From Arcobacter arenosus (GTDB lineage: Bacteria; Campylobacterota; Campylobacteria; Campylobacterales; Arcobacteraceae): a DNA stretch of 64,000 nucleotides. Each line of letters opens with the position of its first letter. Within the stretch, counting starts at the first letter, position 1. Both the position numbers and the translations under genes were made by a program. The DNA lies in assembly GCF_005771535.1 (NCBI RefSeq), contig NZ_VANU01000003.1:124001-188000 (forward strand), read 5' to 3'. Below are positions 18,260 to 30,043 of this stretch, piece by piece. The notes under the pieces are model-generated. The model made no database searches, was not told the DNA's origin, and saw nothing but the letters and a program-made list of their open reading frames with translations.

Positions 18260-19687
18260 TTATTCTTCAATAATTGGTATCAGCAATTGATTAAATTTTC
18301 TCATATCAAATGATATTAAATCTGGATTTGTATATAAAAATTTCCAAGAAAGTCTTTTGTTTAACATACCCTCTTTTAAAGGTAAGATTTGTAAGATATT
18401 TTCTTGTTTTTTTAATTCTCTAATTGGATTTTTATCATTTGAGATAATCTCAATTTTTTCATTAAATATTTTTGATAGATTTTCAAAATGATCAAGTAGG
18501 TGAGTTTTATCCTCATCTTCACCAACAGGGTCCATATCAAAAATCTTTGTTTTTGTTTTAAATTGACTTGCAACATCAAATACAACAGGAGATATTTGCT
18601 CATAAGAGTTTATATCATTTAGAATAATAACTGTTCTTTTAATAGAAGCATTTAAATTTTCCCCTAACTTAAAGATTGGTAGTTTTAAATCTAATAGGTG
18701 TTTAATTTTTGATTTATCTTTAAAGTTTTCATTTGCAAGAATTATCATCCCAATATCTAAAGTTTTTGTATCAGATTTTAATAGTTTTTCCATCCCAATA
18801 TCATGGTAATCCATTTTTATCTCAACGGCATCATTTTTCCCAAATACATCTTTAATATATTCTAAAATACCTACATTTGTAGGTCTTGTAATTCTAATAA
18901 AAAGTTTACTATTTTTTAATCTTTTATTTAAATATTTAAGCTCTTCAACAATATCCAAAACTCTTTTTTTAGAAAGTATAAACATATCAAGATATAAATA
19001 GATATTGTGACCAAAAGGCATTGGAAATTGTCCTTGAGACTTTCCAATTGCATTATAAATTTGCATCAATACAGTTGGTTTCCCAATTACTAAAATAATA
19101 TCATTTGGTTTTAAAATCAAAGAGGGCTTGATATTTACTAACTGGTCATTTCTATATAAACCAAAGATTTTCCAATCTCTTTGTTCAATTGAACCAATAT
19201 ATCTATAGGCATAAGAACTACCAAAAGGTATTTTAATTTCCATAATCTCACCTTGTTTTAGCCCAATATTTTGTGCCATAACAGGAATATTAGGAAGCCT
19301 CTCAACCATCCCATTTGCTAAAACTTCAATACCTTTATAAATATTTAAATAAGGGTCACTTAATTCAATCCCCCAATAATCTAAAATTGAAATTGGCAAA
19401 TTACTTTTTCTACTTCTTATATTTTTAATTACATTTAACATCTCATCTTTTGAATTAAGTGCAACTAATACTTGACTGTGTATATCTTTATCTAAAACCA
19501 TTGCGAGTTTAGACTCAGAAGTGGGGTCAAATTTATAAAAAGTAAAATTGGAAGCTTTGTTTTCAGGAACAATGGAATCATTCATATAAACTACATCATA
19601 ATTGTTGTCTCTTGTATTAGTTTCAACAATTCTTTTCATAAGTTTTTTAGCAACAATACCATCTAAAATTACTAATATTTTTTTCAT
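18260..19687 (-). CDS. COG3400 family TrkA-like protein
   Basis: The 475-residue cytoplasmic protein starts with a nucleotide-binding-like fold (MKKILVILDGIVAKKLMKRIVE). It has a TrkA-C-like region at about 145-205 (GEIMEIKIPFGSSYAY, then LKPNDIILVIGKPTVL) and a second alpha/beta half. This matches the COG3400 proteins of Campylobacterota. They resemble regulatory subunits of potassium channels, but the function is not established. No channel gene adjoins it. It is 24 bases upstream of the aminotransferase gene and may be cotranscribed. Confidence 0.7.
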   Translation of the reverse strand: MKKILVILDGIVAKKLMKRIVETNTRDNNYDVVYMNDSIVPENKASNFTFYKFDPTSESKLAMVLDKDIHSQVLVALNSKDEMLNVIKNIRSRKSNLPISILDYWGIELSDPYLNIYKGIEVLANGMVERLPNIPVMAQNIGLKQGEIMEIKIPFGSSYAYRYIGSIEQRDWKIFGLYRNDQLVNIKPSLILKPNDIILVIGKPTVLMQIYNAIGKSQGQFPMPFGHNIYLYLDMFILSKKRVLDIVEELKYLNKRLKNSKLFIRITRPTNVGILEYIKDVFGKNDAVEIKMDYHDIGMEKLLKSDTKTLDIGMIILANENFKDKSKIKHLLDLKLPIFKLGENLNASIKRTVIILNDINSYEQISPVVFDVASQFKTKTKIFDMDPVGEDEDKTHLLDHFENLSKIFNEKIEIISNDKNPIRELKKQENILQILPLKEGMLNKRLSWKFLYTNPDLISFDMRKFNQLLIPIIEE

Positions 19688-19732: not shown

Positions 19733-20581
19733 TTAGTTTTTTCCTATAATTTTCAAATAATCTTTATAAAATTCATCAAGAGGCTTTAGCTCATGATCTG
19801 TTAAAACTTTTATACCATTTACATCAACATGTTTAAAACTTTCAAGTTGAATATTATTTTCATTTATATCTTTTTTTATATTATCATGTATATAAATATA
19901 TTTTTCAGCAAAATCTTTTCTATCTAATCCCATAGATACTGGAAATATTTTATTAGACTCTTTTATAATCTCAACTTTTGTTTTTATTTGAGGATTTAAT
20001 TTAACCATAGTATCATACAGTTCTTGCCTTACAACAGAAAATTCGTTCTTAAAAAAAACATTAAAAACCAATTTATTATCTTTTTCAATTTTTTTAAAAT
20101 CTATATTTTTTATATTATTTTTTAAAGTATAATACTCAACCCAATTTTTAGCCATCTCTTCTTTATATAAAATTGTTAAATTTTTTACATTTTTTATATC
20201 ATCTTTGAAATTTTTGTTTTTTATTAAATAAAATTTTGAAAAAGTGTTTTCACCTCTAATAAAACCCCATTTTAAATAAGTGATTTTGTCAAGTTTTTCT
20301 TTATTTGAATAATATTTTCCTGGAGTTATAATTATTGAATATAACTTTTTATTATCATATAGATTTATCATTTCATCAAAGTCATCATAGATTTTAAGAA
20401 TCACTTCATTTTTGTATCTATTATCATTATTGACTTTTGTATTCCAAATTTTAGCAGCAACCATTGCTTGTTTTTTAGAAATAAAAATACCTTCAGGATA
20501 AATACCCATATTAATAACATCATCTTTGGCATTTAAAAAAGAAAAAGATATGATTAATCCAATTAAAATTAGTATTTTCAT
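19733..20581 (-). CDS. PhnD-like periplasmic binding protein (paralogue D)
   Basis: A 282-residue protein with a signal peptide (about 1-18, ending FLNA) and the layout of phosphate/phosphonate-type (PhnD-like) binding proteins. It shares with the three other paralogues in this island the block VFNVFFKNEFSVVRQELYD, then MVKLNPQIKTK and an SNKIFPVSMG-like segment. The ATG overlaps the stop of paralogue C (ATGA). No permease or ATPase is present. It is the last gene of the island. Ligand unknown; I infer a sensing role because of the kinases in the same operon. Confidence 0.75.
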   Translation of the reverse strand: MKILILIGLIISFSFLNAKDDVINMGIYPEGIFISKKQAMVAAKIWNTKVNNDNRYKNEVILKIYDDFDEMINLYDNKKLYSIIITPGKYYSNKEKLDKITYLKWGFIRGENTFSKFYLIKNKNFKDDIKNVKNLTILYKEEMAKNWVEYYTLKNNIKNIDFKKIEKDNKLVFNVFFKNEFSVVRQELYDTMVKLNPQIKTKVEIIKESNKIFPVSMGLDRKDFAEKYIYIHDNIKKDINENNIQLESFKHVDVNGIKVLTDHELKPLDEFYKDYLKIIGKN

Positions 20582-21426
20582 TTTAAAACCTCACCATAAT
20601 TTTTATATAAAACCCCTAACTCTTCTAACTCATTATTCTCTATTAAAAAAACATTTTGAATTTGTACATAAGATAAGACACTTAAATCCACTCTATTATT
20701 GTTGATTTTATCATTTATATCTTTATATATTTTGTCCAAAGTTTCTCCTACTCCATCTCTTGTAAAACCTATAGCCCTAAAAAATATTTTAGGGGATTTT
20801 GCAACAATTTCTGTTTTATTTTTAAATTGTGAGTTATACTGCAACATAAGTTCATATATCTCTTTTGGTATTACTACTACTTTATCTTTATGAAAAAATG
20901 CATCTAAAGCTACAATCTTTTCTGTTTCCTTTTGTATATAATTAATTTTACTTTTTTTATTTTCTATTTCTTTTCTTAATACACTATGTGCCCAAACTTT
21001 TTCTAAATCGTTTTTATAGGAAACCTTTATATTTTTAAAACCTTTAATATCAAAATCTGACTCTTTATTTTTAATCATATAATACTCTATAAATTTAAGT
21101 TTATCCCTACTTAATACCCATTTGTATTTAGAGTATTTTTCAAGAAACTCTTTATTTTTAAAAAAGAAGGTCCCCGTTGTAATAATATTAGTAATTTTTT
21201 TGTCTTTATAATCTTTTAATACATCCTCTTTATTTTCATAAAAAAATACCTCTAATTCCACACCAAGATTTAGTTTTTCAATATTTTTAAGCCAAAGTTT
21301 TGCACCTAGTTTTACTTCTTTTTCTGAGAAATGTATATCTCCATACAATAAACCAAGAGCTATTTTATCTTTAGCATTTAAGTAAAAAGATAAAAGTAAT
21401 AAACTTAAAAATATTTTTTTAAACAT
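20578..21426 (-). CDS. PhnD-like periplasmic binding protein (paralogue C)
   Basis: A 282-residue secreted protein with a signal peptide ending FYLNA and the same family layout as the gene after it. It has the common motif in a diverged form: ALDAFFHKDKVVVIPKEIYE, then MLQYNSQFKNKTEIV and SPKIFFRAIGF. Its start lies three bases after the stop of sensor kinase B, so it is cotranscribed with that kinase. Paralogues C and D probably arose by tandem duplication and then diverged. Ligand unknown. Confidence 0.75.
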   Translation of the reverse strand: MFKKIFLSLLLLSFYLNAKDKIALGLLYGDIHFSEKEVKLGAKLWLKNIEKLNLGVELEVFFYENKEDVLKDYKDKKITNIITTGTFFFKNKEFLEKYSKYKWVLSRDKLKFIEYYMIKNKESDFDIKGFKNIKVSYKNDLEKVWAHSVLRKEIENKKSKINYIQKETEKIVALDAFFHKDKVVVIPKEIYELMLQYNSQFKNKTEIVAKSPKIFFRAIGFTRDGVGETLDKIYKDINDKINNNRVDLSVLSYVQIQNVFLIENNELEELGVLYKNYGEVLK

Positions 21427-21429
21427 ATT

Positions 21430-23031
21430 TTATACCATTGGTATTTTTATAGTAAAGATAACGCCATCATTAATATTTTTAGCCGTTAATTTCCCTTGCA
21501 TATTCTGTTCAACAATTACTTTTGACATATAAAGACCAATTCCTGTCCCTTGGGATTGGTGTTTTGTAGTATAGTATGGTTCAAATATTTTTGGTAAAAC
21601 CTCAGTATCGATTCCTCCACCATTATCCTCTATTTCTAAAACTCCACAGTTGTCTTCCTCATAAATTCTAATAGTAACAAGTGGATTATCTATTTTTCTT
21701 TCAACTAAAATATCTTTTGCATTGGTTAAAATATTCATAACAGCTTGTGAAAATTCATTTGGTAGACCATAAACTTTACCACATTTTTCAAACTCTTTTT
21801 TTACTTCAATATAGTTAAATTTTAAACTTGCCCCAACTAAAGTTAAAGCCCTATCAAGTTCAATTTCAATATCAAATTCTTGTTTTGTTTTATTTGGTCT
21901 AAAGAAATTACTAAAATCATCTATTGTTTTAGATAAATAATTAGAAGTTTTTACAATAGTATCAAGTTTGTCTAATTCCCTTTCATCATCAGACATTCCA
22001 AACTCTTTTTCTAATCTAATTCCTGAAGCTGATGTTGTAATTGCAGATAATGGTTGTCTCCATTGATGTGAAATATTTGCAATCATCTCACCCATTGCAG
22101 CTAGTCTTGATTGCTGTATCATTAGCTCTTCTTGTTTCTCTCTTTTTTTAAGTTCCTCTTTTATCCTAGAATCAAGACTTCTATTTAATTCCTCTAAAGC
22201 TTTAGTTTTATCTTCAAGTTCTTTATTTGTTTCATACAACTCTAAAGTTCTATCTTTTACCTTAATTTCTAAATCTTCCCTAGATTTATGTAAAGCTTTT
22301 TGCGATCTTTCAATTGTTGCAATCATCTCATTAAAACTTGTAGAGAGTTCACCTAATTCATCATTTGATTTATAATCACTTCTAAGTTCTAAATTCCCTT
22401 TTTTAATCTTTTTTGCAACCTTATTTAATTTTATAACTGGCATTGAAAGTTTTTTTGCAATAAGATATGAAACAATAATAATTGTTAAAACACTAAAGAT
22501 AAAAAAAGCAATAAACTCAAGGTACATATTCTTTAAATTTGAATTGTACTCCGCTAAAGAGAGGCTCATATGTAATTCACCCCATTTTGTATTTGATAAA
22601 AAAATAGGATAGTTATATAAAAAAACATCTTTTTTTAAATTTTCGGAATAAACGATTTTATAGGAACTTTCATTAGAATTCTTATTATCATAAATCTCAT
22701 GAAGTTTTTCTTCATAGCTCCAGTTATTGTCTCTAACAACATATGAATCCCCAGTGCTTCTAGAAAAAATCAGCTCTTCAACCATTGAGTTTTGATTTAG
22801 AAACTTATCAAAAACTTCAACAATAATAGAACCATCATTTAAAATAATTGCATCAGAAGAGATATAAATAAGCATTTTTGACATATTTGATGCTTGAGTA
22901 TCTAAAGCTTTAAGAATTTGTGATTTTTGCTTTGATAGGGTATATATAGAATATATAGTAGTAAAGAACATTATAGAAATAAACATTGTTACAAATATTT
23001 TAATAAATATTTTATTACTTCTAATTAACAT
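21430..23031 (-). CDS. Sensor histidine kinase B (HAMP type)
   Basis: A 533-residue membrane kinase. Membrane segments at about 9-30 and 166-190 enclose a periplasmic sensor. A HAMP region follows (SMPVIKLNKVAKKIKKGNLELRSD), then a coiled coil and the kinase core QSRLAAMGEMIANISHQWRQPL with the phospho-histidine at 322. ATP-binding motifs MNILTNAKDIL, then DNGGGIDTEVLPKIFEPYYTTK and GTGIGLYMSKVI are intact. The start overlaps the end of binding protein B (11 bases). The nearest receivers in the operon are those at 25298 and 26720. I infer that the neighbouring binding proteins supply its input. Confidence 0.93.
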   Translation of the reverse strand: MLIRSNKIFIKIFVTMFISIMFFTTIYSIYTLSKQKSQILKALDTQASNMSKMLIYISSDAIILNDGSIIVEVFDKFLNQNSMVEELIFSRSTGDSYVVRDNNWSYEEKLHEIYDNKNSNESSYKIVYSENLKKDVFLYNYPIFLSNTKWGELHMSLSLAEYNSNLKNMYLEFIAFFIFSVLTIIIVSYLIAKKLSMPVIKLNKVAKKIKKGNLELRSDYKSNDELGELSTSFNEMIATIERSQKALHKSREDLEIKVKDRTLELYETNKELEDKTKALEELNRSLDSRIKEELKKREKQEELMIQQSRLAAMGEMIANISHQWRQPLSAITTSASGIRLEKEFGMSDDERELDKLDTIVKTSNYLSKTIDDFSNFFRPNKTKQEFDIEIELDRALTLVGASLKFNYIEVKKEFEKCGKVYGLPNEFSQAVMNILTNAKDILVERKIDNPLVTIRIYEEDNCGVLEIEDNGGGIDTEVLPKIFEPYYTTKHQSQGTGIGLYMSKVIVEQNMQGKLTAKNINDGVIFTIKIPMV

Positions 23032-23917
23032 TATACCTCTTTTTCAAATACTCATATTCTTCAAAAAAGTTTACCATATCTTTCATTTCTTCTTTAGTAA
23101 TTCTTTCTAAAGAAGATTGATCTAACAACCTATAAATGTACTCCAACTTCTTCATAATTTTAAGATTTTCAGTATATTTAAAAAATTTTTCTGTGACTTC
23201 ATTAGGTGTATCTTTATGAAAAGCTCCAACCCCATATAAAAATATTTTTTTTGATTCATCAATTATATTTAATCTTTTTTTCAAAGCAGGATTCAGCTTA
23301 ACCATATTATCAAAAACATTTTTTTTCACTACCGTAAAATCTGCTTTATTAAAATATAAATTCAAAATTGCTCTACTTGCCTTTTTTACATTAACTTGTT
23401 CTTTAACTAAAGATTTATATGGTTTTTTAAATTTTTCTAAACTTTTATAATCTAACCATGTATGAAGATTATCATCACCTAAAAAATTTACATAGACTTT
23501 ATTTTTGATATCTTTTATAGATTTAATTTTTGATTCATTATTAGCTAAAAGTACATAACTATGAAATTTATCTTTAGAAGAAAATGCAAAATATTCTTTA
23601 GTATACTTATCTATTATTTTTCTATTTTTTAGATAATAGTTAAGATAGAAAACTGCATTATTAAATCTCTTGTATTCTATATAAGATTTAAGCATTTCAT
23701 CTTCACTATCAAAAAATTCTATATTTACTTCAAGCTCATTTCTTAAAACTTCAGCTAATAAAGTTTCAACCTTATAAACTGAACTTTTTATTTTATTTTG
23801 CTGAACTTTATCAAAGCTATGTATTGTACAAGCTAGACTATAATTTTTATCTATAAATTCATCTGCATTTAAAAACAATGCCAGAAACAATAGAAAAAAT
23901 AGTCTAAAAGTTTTCAT
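23021..23917 (-). CDS. PhnD-like periplasmic binding protein (paralogue B)
   Basis: A 298-residue protein with a signal peptide of about 18 residues ending FLNA. It carries the family block ILNLYFNKADFTVVKKNVFD, then MVKLNPALKKRLNII and SKKIFLYGVGA. The gene overlaps the TolC gene upstream (14 bases) and kinase B downstream (11 bases). This tight coupling links it to kinase B more than to any transporter. Ligand unknown. Confidence 0.75.
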   Translation of the reverse strand: MKTFRLFFLLFLALFLNADEFIDKNYSLACTIHSFDKVQQNKIKSSVYKVETLLAEVLRNELEVNIEFFDSEDEMLKSYIEYKRFNNAVFYLNYYLKNRKIIDKYTKEYFAFSSKDKFHSYVLLANNESKIKSIKDIKNKVYVNFLGDDNLHTWLDYKSLEKFKKPYKSLVKEQVNVKKASRAILNLYFNKADFTVVKKNVFDNMVKLNPALKKRLNIIDESKKIFLYGVGAFHKDTPNEVTEKFFKYTENLKIMKKLEYIYRLLDQSSLERITKEEMKDMVNFFEEYEYLKKRYNVN

Positions 23918-25292
23918 CTACCTTGCTTCCAACAAGTTTATCAATAGTAGCTAAAGAAAGCATATAATCATGAACACTTTTTAAATATGCAGATTTAACA
24001 TACACTTCCATTAATTGAGATTTAACTAAATCTTCAGCTTCAACCATTTCATATTGGTATCCTTTAAAGTTCATATCACTACTTTCAATTGCAGTATTTA
24101 CTGCATCCTTTAAAGTTTGAACTTGTTCATATCCAATTGAGCTTTTCAAAAACTCATTTTTAAGTTGTAAGGCGATTCCTTCTTCTAAAAGAAGTTTTTG
24201 TTCATTCATAACTTTTTTATCTAGTTTTTTCTCCATTACTTCATTTGTAGTTTTAAAACCATTAAATAAAGACATTTTAACAGCAAGTCCTAAACTCCAT
24301 CTATTTTCATCATCTTCATTTAGATACCCATATTCATATGAGTTATATGTATGACTTACATTTCCAAAAAGATTAACCATTGGGTAATAATCAGATTTTG
24401 ATTCTTTTATTTGTTCATCTTTTATTTTTAAAGCAATATTTATAGTATTAATCTCTGGGTTTAATGAAGAAGCTTTTTTTACTAAGTCCTGAAGTTGTCT
24501 ATTGCTTTTTAAAATTTCTTGTTGGTTGTATTCAATTTTTAAAACATCATCATGTTTTAACCCCATAGTATTTGCTAAAGCTGATCTTAACATCTCTTTA
24601 TTTAATTCAATAGTTGACAAAGCTGATTTAATCATTGATGTTAAAAGTTTAATATTTAAATAATCACTTCTATTAATTTTTAGTTCTGTACCATTTTCTA
24701 AAAACTCTTTAGTTATATCTCTACTAAACTCCATATTTTTGTAAATACTTTCTATTAAAGTATATAACTCATTTGTAAGAATATATCCATAAAAATACTT
24801 TTTAATATCATAAACAACATTTGCTTTTTCCCTTACTATTGCTTGTTTTTTAACCTCTTTATTTAATCTAGCTTGTTCAATAATAGCTGAGATTTTGCCA
24901 CCTGTAAAAATAGGATAATTAACTTCAACTTGACCTCTAATGGTATCTCTACCTTTTGCAATAGTATCAATATCAGCATTAATAGTAGTAGAGCTTAAGC
25001 CAAATGGAGTTAATAAAGCAACCATGTCAGCAGGAAGATTAAATTCCCCTCTTTGCTGATAAATAGTATCTTTACTATCTCTATTCACGTATAAAATGGC
25101 ATCTATACTTGGATAGTTTGCACTTAAGGCTTGCTCATATTGAGCTTTTGCAATATCTAAATTTAATTTTGAAATTCTATTTAATGCATTATTTTTTAAT
25201 GCAGTTTCAATCGCTTTATCAAGATTTACGCTCACCTCGTTTGCACATAAACTTCCCACTAGCAAACTTACTAGAACTAGATTTTTAAACAT
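23904..25292 (-). CDS. TolC-family outer membrane channel protein
   Basis: The 462-residue protein has a signal peptide ending SLCAN and two repeats of outer-membrane efflux type. Typical segments are LDKAIETALKNNALNRISKLN near the mature N-terminus, AQYEQALSANYPSIDAIL, GQVEVNYPIFTGGKISAIIEQA and SLGLAVKMSLFNGFKTTNEVME. Such proteins form a trimeric outer-membrane and periplasmic duct for efflux pumps or type I secretion. Neither an inner-membrane pump nor an adaptor gene is nearby. It sits five bases after the GGDEF gene and overlaps binding protein B. Its presence in a signalling operon is unusual. Confidence 0.9.
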   Translation of the reverse strand: MFKNLVLVSLLVGSLCANEVSVNLDKAIETALKNNALNRISKLNLDIAKAQYEQALSANYPSIDAILYVNRDSKDTIYQQRGEFNLPADMVALLTPFGLSSTTINADIDTIAKGRDTIRGQVEVNYPIFTGGKISAIIEQARLNKEVKKQAIVREKANVVYDIKKYFYGYILTNELYTLIESIYKNMEFSRDITKEFLENGTELKINRSDYLNIKLLTSMIKSALSTIELNKEMLRSALANTMGLKHDDVLKIEYNQQEILKSNRQLQDLVKKASSLNPEINTINIALKIKDEQIKESKSDYYPMVNLFGNVSHTYNSYEYGYLNEDDENRWSLGLAVKMSLFNGFKTTNEVMEKKLDKKVMNEQKLLLEEGIALQLKNEFLKSSIGYEQVQTLKDAVNTAIESSDMNFKGYQYEMVEAEDLVKSQLMEVYVKSAYLKSVHDYMLSLATIDKLVGSKVDENF

Positions 25293-25297
25293 TCTAA

Positions 25298-26584
25298 TTA
25301 ATCCTTCTTATTGAAACTAGATAAAACTACTTGATTTCTTCCATTTTCTTTTGCTTCATATAAAGCTTTATCGGCTAATCTATACATATCTTTTGAATCT
25401 AATAACTTTTCAGAATTTACAATAATTAAACCTGCTGAAATAGTTACATATTCACTGCATAAACTATTTTCATGGGCAATTTTTAAAGACTCTATCTCTT
25501 CTATAATAGATTCTAAAAACTGAAAAGACTCTTCAACACTGTTACTAGTAAATATAAGTCCAAACTCTTCTCCCCCAAGTCTAAAGGCATAATCACTAGC
25601 CCTAGAAGATTTAAGTTTTAAAACATTTGCAATTGCAACTAAAGCTTCATCACCCTTTGGATGTCCATAGGTATCATTATAGCTTTTGAAATAATCCACA
25701 TCAATAATCGCTAAAGAAAGAGTTGTTTTTTCCCTTGTTAATCTTCTATTTTCTTTTTCAATAATTGTATTAAAATATCGTCTATTATAAATATCTGTTG
25801 TTTCATCTTTAATAGCTAATTGTTCTAGTTTTTTCTTATTTGTAATATCTTCTCTAATAGCTAAAAAGTTTTCTATTTCACCCTCTTGATTTAAAACAGG
25901 TGTGATTGTTAAATTTGACCAAAACTCTTCTTGGTTTTTCTTTCTGTTTTTAATTTCAGATTTAAATATCTTCCCTTTTTTTATCTCTTCCCACATTTCT
26001 TTATAAAATTCATCTGGGGTATCTTCATGTCTAAGTATACTATGAGTATTGCCAATTAGTTCCTCTTTTGTGTAACCAATTAATTCACAATAAATACTAC
26101 TTGCATCAATTATGTTACCATCTTTATCTGTAACTGACATCAATACGTTTTCATCTAAAATTTTAAGTACATTCTCTTTTTCAAATAATCTATCTTGTAA
26201 TCTTTTACTTACAACTGATTCTTGAATATTTGTAAGTAACTCTTTTAAATCAACTGGTTTTATTATAAATTTATTAACTTTTAGTTCTATTGCATATAAA
26301 AAATATTCTATATCAGAAAAAGCAGTGGTAATAATAACGGGTGTTGTAGTTTTAAGTTCCCTTAACATATCAATACCATTCATTTTAGGCATTTGTATAT
26401 CTGTAACTATTACATCAGGGTTAATCTTTTTATAAACCTCTATACCCTCAAGACCATTTGAAGCAACATGAAAATTTGGAATAAATCTTTTACAGAAAAA
26501 AGAGACCTCTTCTTTTATCATCTCTTCATCTTCAACATAGAGTACAGTTAGAGATTCTAGTAAATCTTTATTTAACTTTTTCAT
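25298..26584 (-). CDS. Response regulator with PAS and GGDEF domains (probable diguanylate cyclase)
   Basis: A 428-residue protein with a receiver at about 10-125 (LYVEDEE, phospho-aspartate D62 in VIVTDIQMP), a PAS domain at about 135-260 and a GGDEF domain at about 265-425. The active-site motif is GGEEF, which supports cyclic di-GMP synthesis. The residues RASD five positions before it fit the inhibitory I-site RxxD. The receiver N-terminus is closely similar to that of the neighbouring response regulator. It is the first gene of the tight operon down to 19733, after a 135-base AT-rich gap. I infer that one or both kinases act on it. Confidence 0.93.
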   Translation of the reverse strand: MKKLNKDLLESLTVLYVEDEEMIKEEVSFFCKRFIPNFHVASNGLEGIEVYKKINPDVIVTDIQMPKMNGIDMLRELKTTTPVIITTAFSDIEYFLYAIELKVNKFIIKPVDLKELLTNIQESVVSKRLQDRLFEKENVLKILDENVLMSVTDKDGNIIDASSIYCELIGYTKEELIGNTHSILRHEDTPDEFYKEMWEEIKKGKIFKSEIKNRKKNQEEFWSNLTITPVLNQEGEIENFLAIREDITNKKKLEQLAIKDETTDIYNRRYFNTIIEKENRRLTREKTTLSLAIIDVDYFKSYNDTYGHPKGDEALVAIANVLKLKSSRASDYAFRLGGEEFGLIFTSNSVEESFQFLESIIEEIESLKIAHENSLCSEYVTISAGLIIVNSEKLLDSKDMYRLADKALYEAKENGRNQVVLSSFNKKD

Positions 26585-26719
26585 AAAATTTATCCTAAAT
26601 TTTTATCTTGTATTTTCAAAATTGAAACTACTGATTATCATAAGTTTATTATTTTTTTAATTTATTTTATATTAAATAATTTTATAATAGATGTTTACAA
26701 TATTACATTCATGTTATTT

Positions 26720-27586
26720 TTATAAAGCACAAATTTTATTTATTTTTTCTAAACCATTTATATAATCTTTTTTTTCTAAATTTTTATTCAATATCTGATT
26801 TGTAATATTTTCAATTTTTTTTAATTTCTGTTCTTGGGTATCTATAAAAATAAGAACACTTTTATTTGTACTTTTAAAATACTTATGGGTAACAAAAAAT
26901 TCACTTTTTAGATTATGTCCAGTTTTTTTTACTGATATTAAATGACTTTTATCGCTATTTTTAACAATATAATCAATCCAGTTTTCATCTTCTTCTAAAT
27001 TTTCAAGGGTAAAAATATCTTTACATAACTTACTTGCTTCTTTTAATGAATTTATATTCTCATGACCTAATTGCTTTAAAAAATTTTTGTTTGCATATTC
27101 AATCTCTTCCCCATGAAGAATAAACATAAAAGATGGATTACTATCAAGTAAAAACTGCACATAATCATCAAAGTCATCACATAGCTTATTTTGCTTGCCT
27201 AGGTTTAATGATTTTTGAATTACAGCTAACATTTCAATCATATTAATTGGTTTTAAAAGGTATTTTTCAATTCCAAGTTCAATTGCCTTTATTAAATAAT
27301 CACCATCACTATATGCACTTGTTAAAACTATAGGGAAATCTTCTTCAATTTTTAAAATCTCTTCACACATATCTAAACCATTTTTAATAGGCATTTGTAT
27401 ATCAGAAATCACAATATTAGGCTTGTGAGCTTTAAATAAATCAATTCCCTCTTGGCCATTTTTAGCAATAAGAAGTTTTTTTACATATTTTTTAAGAAAA
27501 AAACTAATCTCCTCAACTGTCATATCATCATCTTCTACATAAAGAACTGTTAAATTTTCAAATAGACTTTTATCAACTTTTTTCAA
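26720..27586 (-). CDS. Response regulator with PAS-like region, no DNA-binding domain
   Basis: The receiver (about 8-125) has LYVEDDD and the phospho-aspartate at about 62 in IVISDIQMPIKNG. A PAS-like region covers about 145-265. No helix-turn-helix, GGDEF or EAL follows, so the output is unclear. I chose the TTG at 27586, with AAGGA eight bases before it, which gives MKKVDKSLFENLTVLYVEDD. This parallels the paralogue's MKKLNKDLLESLTVLYVEDE. An upstream ATG at 27640 would overlap the kinase by 68 bases. The start overlaps the stop of kinase A by 14 bases, so it is the natural partner of that kinase. Confidence 0.85.
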   Translation of the reverse strand: MKKVDKSLFENLTVLYVEDDDMTVEEISFFLKKYVKKLLIAKNGQEGIDLFKAHKPNIVISDIQMPIKNGLDMCEEILKIEEDFPIVLTSAYSDGDYLIKAIELGIEKYLLKPINMIEMLAVIQKSLNLGKQNKLCDDFDDYVQFLLDSNPSFMFILHGEEIEYANKNFLKQLGHENINSLKEASKLCKDIFTLENLEEDENWIDYIVKNSDKSHLISVKKTGHNLKSEFFVTHKYFKSTNKSVLIFIDTQEQKLKKIENITNQILNKNLEKKDYINGLEKINKICAL

Positions 27587-29144
27587 TTTTAAATTCCTTA
27601 TATAGTGGTATTTTAACGATAAACTGCGCCCCATTTTCAATATTTCTTACGCTTAATTTACCCTCCATATTTTGTTCAACTATAATTTTTGACATATATA
27701 ATCCAATACCAGTTCCTTTACCCTCTTCTTTTGTAGTAAAATATGGTTCAAAAACTTTATTTATGATATCTTGTGGAATTCCTCCTGCATTATCTTCAAT
27801 AGAAACGATTCCATAATCTTTATCATTTTTTACTGTAATAGTGACTTTTGCATTAGGTATTGAGTTTTCACTAAAAGCATCTTTTGAATTATTCATAATA
27901 TTTAAAATAGTTTGAGAAAACTCATTTGAAAAACCAAATACTTTAATTTTACTCTCAAATTTTTGTATTATCTTAATATTATGATGTTCAAAGGTTGAAT
28001 CAACAATATCTAAGGTTTTTTTAACAATATCATTTAAAACAAAAACCTCTTTTTCTTTATTAGGTTTAAAAAAGTTTCTAAAATCATCAATTGTTTTTGA
28101 CATATTATTAGCCAGAAGATTTACTTTTTTTACTGATTTTTCCATAAACTCATCATCTAACTCATTTAATTCATATGCAAGCTGAACATTTTGCATCACT
28201 AAACTTAATGCATTTAAAGGTTGTCTCCATTGATGTGCGATATTTCCAATCATCTCACCCATAGAAGCAAGTTTTGATTGTTGTATCAACAACTGCTCTT
28301 GTTCTTGTCTTTTTCTAATCTCAGAATCAACCCTTTTTTCTAGATTTTCATTTAAATCATTAAGCTCTTTTGTTCTTTGTTCAACCCTCTCTTCTAATTT
28401 TGAATGGGACTCCCTTAATCTTTTTTGAGTCTCATTTAATGCAGTAACCATTTTATTAAAATTTTGGGCTAATTTTCCTATCTCATCATTAGTTTTAATA
28501 TCAAGTTTCATAGATAAATTACCCTTTGATATCTCTTCCGTAATAGAGTTAAACTGGATGATAGGTGCTGTAATCATTTTTGCTAAAGTATATGAAATAA
28601 GCAAAGAGGTGAAAAGTAAAATTACACCTAAAGTTATAGCATTATTATCAATATTCTCAACTTGTTTTTGGTATTCCACTAAATCTAATTCTAAAATCAA
28701 ATCCCCCCAAATAATATCATTAAAATATACTGGAAAAATATATTTAAAAATCTTTTTATTATATTCGTCTGAATCAAAAATTGAATATGAAAAATCCCTC
28801 GCAATATTTACATTGCCTAACTGCTCTCTTTCTACTAAACTCCAATTGTCTTTTTTTACAATTATTCTACTTCCCTTTTCCCTTGTAATTGTAATAGATT
28901 CTAAATCCTCATTTAATGAAACAAAGTCTTGTACTGATTCCAAAAGGGTAATCTCATCCTCAACTACCATAGCATCACTATTTGAGATATAAATATTTTG
29001 TGCAATACTTTTTGCTTTTATTTGTTGAGCACCTAAAATAGATTCTTTTTGGGTAAAAATAAATTGATAAGTAAAAAATACAAAAATTATAGTCATTGTA
29101 AAAAATATTAGTACAAAGATTTTAAGAAATAAAGTTGATCTCAT
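27573..29144 (-). CDS. Sensor histidine kinase A (HAMP type)
   Basis: A 523-residue kinase with membrane segments at about 7-28 and 167-190, a periplasmic sensor, a HAMP region (APIIQFNSITEEISKGNLSMKLD), a coiled coil and the core QSKLASMGEMIGNIAHQWRQPL with the phospho-histidine at 304. LNIMNNSKDAF, DNAGGIPQDIINKVFEPYFTTK and GTGIGLYMSKII form the ATP site. It is very similar in layout to kinase B. Its ATG shares a base with the stop of binding protein A, and its own end overlaps the response regulator. Together they form a three-gene set of sensor input, kinase and receiver. Confidence 0.93.
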   Translation of the reverse strand: MRSTLFLKIFVLIFFTMTIIFVFFTYQFIFTQKESILGAQQIKAKSIAQNIYISNSDAMVVEDEITLLESVQDFVSLNEDLESITITREKGSRIIVKKDNWSLVEREQLGNVNIARDFSYSIFDSDEYNKKIFKYIFPVYFNDIIWGDLILELDLVEYQKQVENIDNNAITLGVILLFTSLLISYTLAKMITAPIIQFNSITEEISKGNLSMKLDIKTNDEIGKLAQNFNKMVTALNETQKRLRESHSKLEERVEQRTKELNDLNENLEKRVDSEIRKRQEQEQLLIQQSKLASMGEMIGNIAHQWRQPLNALSLVMQNVQLAYELNELDDEFMEKSVKKVNLLANNMSKTIDDFRNFFKPNKEKEVFVLNDIVKKTLDIVDSTFEHHNIKIIQKFESKIKVFGFSNEFSQTILNIMNNSKDAFSENSIPNAKVTITVKNDKDYGIVSIEDNAGGIPQDIINKVFEPYFTTKEEGKGTGIGLYMSKIIVEQNMEGKLSVRNIENGAQFIVKIPLYKEFKIEKS

Positions 29145-30043
29145 CAGTTATATCTCTTTTCTAATTCAAAATACTCTTTGAAAAATTTATTTAAATCTTT
29201 CAAACTCTCATCTTCAATTATAAAAATCGAATCGATTTTTAAAAGATTAATTAATCTTAATGCTTTTTTTGATTTTAATTCTTGAGGATTAGCACCTTTT
29301 GTTAAGAAAAATTCCCTTGATGTAGCATCAGAAGTTTTTGAATACATAGCTAAATTATCAAAAAAAATCTCATCTGACATATCGATTATTTTTACTTTTT
29401 TCTTAATTGCAGGATTAAAACTAACTATAACATCCCAAGCTCTTTTTGTAATAATTCCATAATCTGATTTTCCAAAAAACACACTAAAAACAACTCTTCT
29501 ATCATTTTTCTCTTTCTTTAATTCTTCTAAAAGTTTTTTTGATGATTTTTTATTTATAGTTAAAGAGTTTTTTTCAAGCCAAACATTTGCATTTTTATCT
29601 TCACTTTTTAAAACTAGTTTTTTATTTTTTAAGTCTTTAAAACCTTTTAGTTTTTTTTCACCATCTGCTATAAGATAATATCTTGACCTTTTCTTTTTAC
29701 TTAAAGAAACTCCCCATTTTTTGTATGTTAAAGGATCTAATAAATCTTTATTTCTATAATAAGTAAGGGCATCTAAAATAATTGTGTCCAGTTTTTTATT
29801 TTTATAATCTTTTAGAATTTTTTCTTTTTCATAATAAATATTAATATTTATTTTCATTTTTTCGAATTCTGCAAGTTCTGTTACCCACGAGTTTAATGCA
29901 ACATTTCTATCTTTAAATTTTGATAAAATCCCTGCTTCATTTGAGATGCCAATATTAGCATAATATAAGTAATCGATTTTTTCAGAGGCAGACAAAAATA
30001 TATTTAAAAAAATTATTATTAAAAAAACTCTAATTATTTTCAT
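29144..30043 (-). CDS. PhnD-like periplasmic binding protein (paralogue A)
   Basis: The 299-residue protein has a signal peptide ending FLSAS and the shared block VFSVFFGKSDYGIITKRAWD, then VSFNPAIKKKVKIID and SDEIFFDNLAMY. It is the first gene of the island and overlaps the kinase A start by one base. No transporter subunits are present, so I infer that it binds a ligand and presents it to kinase A. The ligand is unknown; the distant relatives bind phosphonate or phosphate-like anions. Confidence 0.75.
   Translation of the reverse strand: MKIIRVFLIIIFLNIFLSASEKIDYLYYANIGISNEAGILSKFKDRNVALNSWVTELAEFEKMKININIYYEKEKILKDYKNKKLDTIILDALTYYRNKDLLDPLTYKKWGVSLSKKKRSRYYLIADGEKKLKGFKDLKNKKLVLKSEDKNANVWLEKNSLTINKKSSKKLLEELKKEKNDRRVVFSVFFGKSDYGIITKRAWDVIVSFNPAIKKKVKIIDMSDEIFFDNLAMYSKTSDATSREFFLTKGANPQELKSKKALRLINLLKIDSIFIIEDESLKDLNKFFKEYFELEKRYN

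Follow-up and report, generated by a model that had tools for sequence, protein, structure and literature searches.

Gene content and layout of the island

Within the window, a 64,000-nucleotide stretch of an Arcobacter arenosus contig, nine genes lie on the minus strand between positions 30043 and 19733, in the order SBP1-HK1-RR-(135 bp)-DGC-TolC-SBP2-HK2-SBP3-SBP4. SBP1 (29144..30043) is a secreted binding protein with the PhnD fold and the proposed ligand receptor of the membrane kinase HK1 (27573..29144), RR (26720..27586) is a receiver protein, and DGC (25298..26584) is a response-regulator diguanylate cyclase of the receiver-PAS-GGDEF type. The outer-membrane channel TolC (23904..25292), identified by PF02321 (OEP), is followed by another PhnD-fold binding protein, SBP2 (23021..23917), directly upstream of the second kinase, HK2 (21430..23031), and then by two diverged members of the SBP family, SBP3 (20578..21426) and SBP4 (19733..20581). 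An earlier reading of the sequence alone (hereafter, the first-pass annotation) had proposed these nine genes, and all nine open reading frames are indeed found at the positions it gave.

The genes overlap or are closely spaced, as had been noted, with small overlaps of 1 to 14 bp, namely, 1 bp (stop/start) between SBP1 and HK1, 11 bp between SBP2 and HK2, 14 bp between SBP2 and TolC, and 4 bp between SBP3 and SBP4. The binding proteins had been described as starting or ending inside the kinase genes; SBP3 starts 3 bp past the end of HK2. Taken alone, gene overlap is a weak argument for a receptor role. The division into two transcripts, also proposed, had the gap between RR and DGC (26585..26719) as its sole basis: the gap exists, but the minus-strand search of the island detected no terminator, and promoter-like matches only at the background level. 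In related loci (L028, L041, L044), a gene for an 860-aa kinase is located between RR and DGC. RR itself most likely starts at TTG 27586, behind the ribosome-binding-like AAGGA, yielding a protein of 288 aa. An Rfam search returned no match, and a 144-aa plus-strand open reading frame (28558-28992) inside HK1 was taken as a chance occurrence, being antisense to a conserved gene. A TrkA_C-domain gene (window 18260-19687) flanks the TolC-SBP2-HK2-SBP3-SBP4 part of the island (module B below) at a fixed location bounded by tgt and murC; this gene is highly conserved (64-84%) and occupies the same site also where no SBP adjoins it (L096, L097).

The binding proteins

The Phosphonate-bd domain (PF12974) is recognized in SBP1 (37.2 bits) and SBP2 (39.1 bits), with both scores exceeding the 27-bit cut-off. 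A Pfam search of SBP3 and SBP4 produced no significant match; both are detected by a family profile built without either protein and without their orthologues (E 4.6e-19 and 6e-27, respectively). The four related PhnD-like proteins of the first-pass annotation are thus recovered, two by Pfam and two by the family profile, with 34% (SBP2), 27% (SBP3) and 31% (SBP4) identity to SBP1.

The AF2 model of SBP1 (17 sequences; pLDDT 87) has ArrX, AioX and PtxB as its best PDB folds (Foldseek E 7e-16 for the best match), with near-tied VIA Z scores of 21.0 for ArrX (254 aligned, 4.7 A), 20.7 for PtxB and 19.7 for AioX. Of these, ArrX and AioX act as the sensors of established three-component systems (PMC5908839). 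Because the uptake protein PtxB nearly ties with these sensors, the fold of SBP1 fits a sensor and a transport protein alike.

The name PhnD had led to the proposal of an anion-like signal. Among the AioX pocket positions tested (Tyr131, Ser161, Ser163, His192 and Asp210 in the AioX numbering, with Tyr88 and Cys106 left out), none is conserved in the family: across 65 aligned SBPs, the position of Ser161 holds 4 Ser, that of Ser163 holds 17 Ser, and that of His192 is mostly Glu/Asp, in a mapping that is limited to the mappable AioX/PhnD positions and employs a remote alignment with AioX. Given that the mapped oxyanion-pocket positions are not conserved, we drop the term "anion-like" and assign no ligand class. 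Among the 65 family members, Phe190 and Asn210 (SBP1 numbering) do not vary, and Pro211 hardly does.

The kinases and their sensor domain

HK1 and HK2 are 40% identical and share the architecture TM - single Cache periplasmic domain - TM - HAMP - HisKA - HATPase. In both, Pfam identifies HAMP and HATPase_c, in agreement with the two HAMP-type kinases annotated previously; HisKA is above the cut-off in HK2 and just under it in HK1, where the H-box and the ATPase boxes are intact. The sensor domain was modelled as a single Cache (pLDDT 86.5), with fold matches to WalK, dCache receptors and CitA, and the sensor profile matches HK2 with E 1.6e-66.

Between relatives, the least conserved parts are the SBPs (32-39% identity) and the Cache domain (31-57%), and the better conserved ones are the kinase core (60-75%), TolC (61-69%) and DGC (54-63%). 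Such fast divergence of both SBP and Cache would fit ligand-driven change of a receptor together with its partner.

Co-occurrence and modular organization in Arcobacteraceae

Among 104 genomes of the family, the SBP profile gives 64 matches in 30, and a profile covering the N-terminus and the periplasmic part of the kinases gives 37 strong matches in 27. Both families are present in 27 genomes, the SBP only in 3, the kinase sensor only in 0 and neither in 74 (Fisher P 6e-22, a value that ignores the relatedness of the genomes). Two of the SBP-only genomes (G012, G088) are highly fragmented, and the third (G098) is 85% complete. The finding that the kinase sensor never occurs without the SBP family is the strongest evidence that SBP and receptor act together.

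Neighbourhoods were read for most SBP loci in the family. An SBP gene is located directly upstream of the kinase in 30 of the 37 cases; in the remaining seven, the SBP is downstream (G047), the kinase lies at a contig edge (G056, G089), the SBP is broken (G096), or the SBPs are elsewhere (the second kinase of G051, G057, G091). The partners persist even when split: G051 and G091 each encode TolC-HK without a neighbouring SBP and a solo SBP elsewhere in the genome, and in G056 and G057, TolC-SBP and HK-DGC occupy two different sites. The gene arrangement is that expected of an SBP-stimulated transmembrane receptor (PMC9602780), with a gene for a secreted SBP tied to a membrane receptor that has a periplasmic ligand-binding domain.

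Two modules can be delineated. Module A consists of SBP1-HK1, followed in many genomes by a ~600-aa protein, a ~300-aa RR, a ~860-aa kinase and RR-PAS-GGDEF; the ~600-aa protein has a receiver-PAS-PAS-HD composition in Pfam and an HD-GYP motif in its sequence, that is, it belongs to the c-di-GMP phosphodiesterase type. Module B comprises TolC-SBP2-HK2 followed by 0-3 more SBPs, mostly at one fixed place, with tgt on one side and the TrkA_C gene on the other. G013 has the two modules joined beside tgt, an arrangement shared with the window, and its module A is complete; compared with G013, the window is without the HD-GYP and 860-aa kinase genes but retains RR and DGC. In G003, G014 and G015, A and B reside at separate sites. 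Being joined in G013 and the window but separate in other genomes, A and B are independent units, and each is built around a pair of SBP and kinase.

Several of these genomes hold other features of note. In G083 (L055 11051-14232), an insertion of ~1.8 kb, probably a mobile element, interrupts the HK1 gene; it carries a 454-aa open reading frame on the opposite strand, and both halves of the kinase gene remain. Beside tgt in G004 (L036 13554-16937), there are many short open reading frames with the repeated translations FQYIICFDS / YFNTLYVLIQ, which suggests a CRISPR-like array at the chromosomal site of module B. In two of the three weak extra matches to the sensor (G021, G025), a lipoprotein gene overlaps the kinase start; the G021 lipoprotein partially matches the SBP family, and the one in G025 resembles it on visual inspection. 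These overlapping genes for a diverged SBP-like lipoprotein and a Cache kinase, located near receiver proteins (L101 5123-7665 in G025, L102 5928-8485 in G021), possibly represent a second, related receptor type in Arcobacteraceae.

Receivers and a probable connection to cyclic di-GMP

Cyclic di-GMP is the signal by which bacteria choose between swimming and settling. DGC combines Response_reg (79 bits), PAS and GGDEF (139 bits) domains in Pfam; the phosphorylatable receiver Asp lies within VTDIQMP, the GGEEF motif is intact, and a RASD (I-site) motif is present, as expected of a PleD/WspR-like response-regulator cyclase. RR contains Response_reg and a weak PAS domain, without a DNA-binding output domain. 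Along its entire length it shares 58% identity with the 301-aa RR encoded by the complete G013 cassette and is, accordingly, the orthologue of a separate protein rather than a truncated HD-GYP protein, an assignment that we considered and rejected.

The first-pass annotation had suggested that the island as a whole links an external signal to cyclic di-GMP and had treated both kinases as possible phosphodonors for both receivers. For module A (SBP1-HK1-RR-DGC), the connection is supported by the HD-GYP protein in the operon of relatives and by DGC itself, an orthologue of which occurs in each of the 15 genomes counted as having the HK1 module. This support does not extend to HK2: a search of the genomes with module B only (G004, G005, G006) found no DGC orthologue, so the output of HK2 need not be c-di-GMP. 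As DGC orthologues accompany module A and not module B, the notion that both kinases necessarily feed both receivers is rejected.

Cassettes outside Campylobacterota and exchange of the output module

When named genomes were scanned with the kinase profile, most matches were generic kinases, and four loci (L104-L107) were informative. L106, on the Poseidonibacter ostreae contig NZ_WFKJ01000019.1, is 100% identical to L054 (G093); the other three are full-length kinase relatives in non-campylobacterial MAGs, with the gene orders HDGYP-TolC-SBPx4-HK in L104 (a MAG labelled Thiobacillus sp.), HDGYP-TolC-SBPx7-HK in L105 (a MAG labelled Tepidiphilus sp.) and HDGYP-TolC-SBP-HK in L107 (an uncultured proteobacterium). 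The SBP family is rare in these groups, being represented in 3 of the 369 sampled genomes of the class of L105 and 3 of the 399 sampled genomes of the order of L104, seeds included.

The gammaproteobacterium G770 (L184) has the arrangement TolC-SBP-[809-aa protein]-SBP-SBP; in the 809-aa protein, the sensor domain of the cassette kinases (iE 1.8e-21, from a search of small size) is joined to HAMP, GGDEF and EAL instead of a kinase. G612 (L185) has a lipoprotein SBP gene ahead of that for a Cache-HAMP-PAS-GGDEF-EAL protein, with only a weak sensor match and without TolC. These architectures indicate that the output module, either a kinase or a c-di-GMP enzyme, was exchanged while SBP and sensor were kept together, and the swap in L184 supports a probable link of the sensor domain in general to c-di-GMP.

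The TolC-type channel

The 21 cassette TolCs, among them those of L104, L105, L107 and L184, all fall into a single clade (support 1.00) that is separated by a long branch from the 11 TolC-family paralogues of the window genome; the tree, which lacks gammaproteobacterial outgroups, shows only that the cassette TolCs are closer to one another than to host paralogues. TolC can thus be regarded as a component of the cassette. It adjoins an SBP in most module-B loci and in 4 of the 5 cassettes read outside Campylobacterota, and this adjacency persists without an adjoining kinase in G056 and G057. Module A has no TolC in several genomes (L031, L033, L043, L045), and no inner-membrane pump or adaptor gene is present in the cassette. 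We know of no parallel to this conserved pairing between a TolC-type channel and a sensory SBP, which suggests that orphan outer-membrane factors may have a role not recognised so far.

Receptor cassette or uptake system

The first-pass annotation reported no ABC permeases or ATPases and considered the SBPs to be ligand receptors rather than uptake proteins, a view that a cognate permease would have contradicted. Pfam indeed identifies no ABC ATPase or permease in the island, and in a genome-wide search for PhnE, the best match scored 76.9 bits, against the family cut-off of 216.7 bits. Thus, the pair that would define ABC uptake of phosphonate or phosphite, a cognate PhnE permease (sought genome-wide) and a PhnC ATPase (sought in the island), was not found. 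Two other loci can be mentioned. A solo SBP in G087 (L062 7143-10625) comes immediately after what appears to be an operon for a tungstate transporter (tupABC-like, with a TupC-like ABC gene), which has its own TupA-like binding protein. The only strong PhnD-like protein of the window genome (C10:21255-21947; L088 7226-8008) has no permease nearby, and its gene is located just upstream of that for a 601-aa HAMP-HisKA-HATPase protein with a receiver-like C-terminus.

Taken together, co-occurrence, gene order, split partners, the absence of a permease and the GGDEF-EAL swap strongly support the receptor role, and we consider it likely that the island is a dedicated receptor cassette for extracellular signals, not an uptake system. 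The cassettes outside Campylobacterota and the single-chain fusions of PhnD domains to signalling outputs in other Campylobacteria (below) also speak for this reading. Under this scenario, the secreted PhnD-fold SBPs would capture the ligand in the periplasm, and a loaded (or empty) SBP would dock, presumably by direct contact, on the single Cache domain of the membrane kinase and set its activity. In module A, HK1, so controlled by SBP1, would phosphorylate both the neighbouring RR and DGC, raising or lowering c-di-GMP. In module B, HK2 would be the common receptor of SBP2, SBP3 and SBP4, with a receiver that is perhaps that of module A or is encoded elsewhere. The TolC-type channel probably controls how the ligand enters or leaves across the outer membrane.

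Alternatively, the SBPs could serve an unlinked ABC transporter, with the kinases merely regulating uptake or moonlighting with it. Apart from the PhnD fold and the tie with PtxB, this option draws on the unlinked SBP genes in several relatives, where about ten SBP loci have no adjoining kinase, and a distant or non-canonical permease can be envisaged; nevertheless, it appears very unlikely, given that no ABC gene occurs within the cassette in any of the loci read, that the genome has no PhnE above the cut-off, and that 1-7 SBPs are kept beside the receptor gene across distant lineages, the sensor domain never being found without the SBP family. The latter pattern, seen across the 104 genomes, also weighs against the possibility that small ligands are bound by the HK1 and HK2 Cache domains themselves, with the SBPs only buffering or delivering them and no obligatory protein contact. 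Single Cache domains, such as those of CitA and DcuS, which are among the fold-search matches, do bind ligands directly, but the joint fast divergence of SBP and Cache is another argument against this alternative, which we consider unlikely.

A further possibility extends the receptor reading rather than excluding it: TolC could be the main effector, with the SBPs reporting the periplasmic level of an exported compound and thereby tuning export and c-di-GMP, in a form of self-signalling or efflux homeostasis. The single clade of cassette TolCs and their persistent adjacency to SBPs are compatible with such a role, but the lack of a pump or adaptor gene and the TolC-less module A make it rather improbable. 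More tentatively than the receptor cassette itself, but with better prospects than these alternatives, we can envisage a mobile multi-receptor cassette, in which a dedicated TolC-type channel, 1-7 tandem diverging SBPs and one Cache receptor would be combined with an interchangeable output (a kinase with HD-GYP/GGDEF receivers, or a fused GGDEF-EAL), so that the c-di-GMP level would integrate several extracellular ligands or a ligand exported by the cell itself. If the receptor cassette is what we take it to be, binding proteins are used here only as receptors, and their tandem copies would let one kinase hear several ligands and be wired to c-di-GMP.

Relationship to known systems

Stimulation of a membrane receptor by an SBP without transport is an established principle, exemplified by AioX-AioS and NspS-MbaA (overviews in PMC9602780, PMC8846402). 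The island resembles AioX-AioS-AioR and ArrX/ArxX (PMC5908839) in that a separate gene for a secreted PhnD-fold SBP lies beside a kinase and a response regulator with no transporter, and ArrX and AioX are among the nearest PDB folds to the SBP1 model. The cassette nevertheless falls outside the AioX family, because neither the oxyanion pocket nor the type of response regulator matches: those systems employ AtoC- or CitB-type regulators, whereas the island encodes only RR-PAS and RR-PAS-GGDEF. It also differs in having no adjoining arsenic enzyme genes, several SBPs per kinase and a dedicated TolC.

In NspS-MbaA of Vibrio cholerae (PMC8967002), a transport-independent SBP controls c-di-GMP via a membrane receptor, a logic shared by the gammaproteobacterial L184, with its SBP and membrane GGDEF-EAL protein. 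NspS is a polyamine-binding protein, whereas the window encodes PhnD-type SBPs, a two-step kinase/receiver route, tandem SBPs and TolC; the combination of a polyamine-type SBP with a membrane GGDEF-EAL protein is not seen here, and a GGDEF-EAL partner occurs only in L184 and L185. The tetrathionate and thiosulfate kinases TtrS and ThsS (PMC5408782) likewise use a PhnD-like domain as sensor kinase input, but within the kinase chain, unlike the separate secreted protein and Cache domain of the cassette. A literature search for the cassette as such retrieved nothing relevant; what is new in it is the set of tandem diverged PhnD-fold SBPs that would share one Cache receptor, the dedicated TolC clade, and the kinase or GGDEF-EAL output.

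PBP-clan domains are frequent in GGDEF, EAL and HD-GYP proteins, and only SBP_bac_3 has been studied in c-di-GMP networks (PMC8846402), so the cassette offers a testable PhnD-type case. Those proteins are single-chain sensors, whereas in the cassette the receptors are separate and multiplied. Among long Campylobacteria open reading frames with Phosphonate-bd matches, 14 of the 18 sampled contain GGDEF or EAL motifs; in a Pfam check of nine such frames, PhnD is fused to GGDEF, EAL or HD in seven and to HisKA in two.
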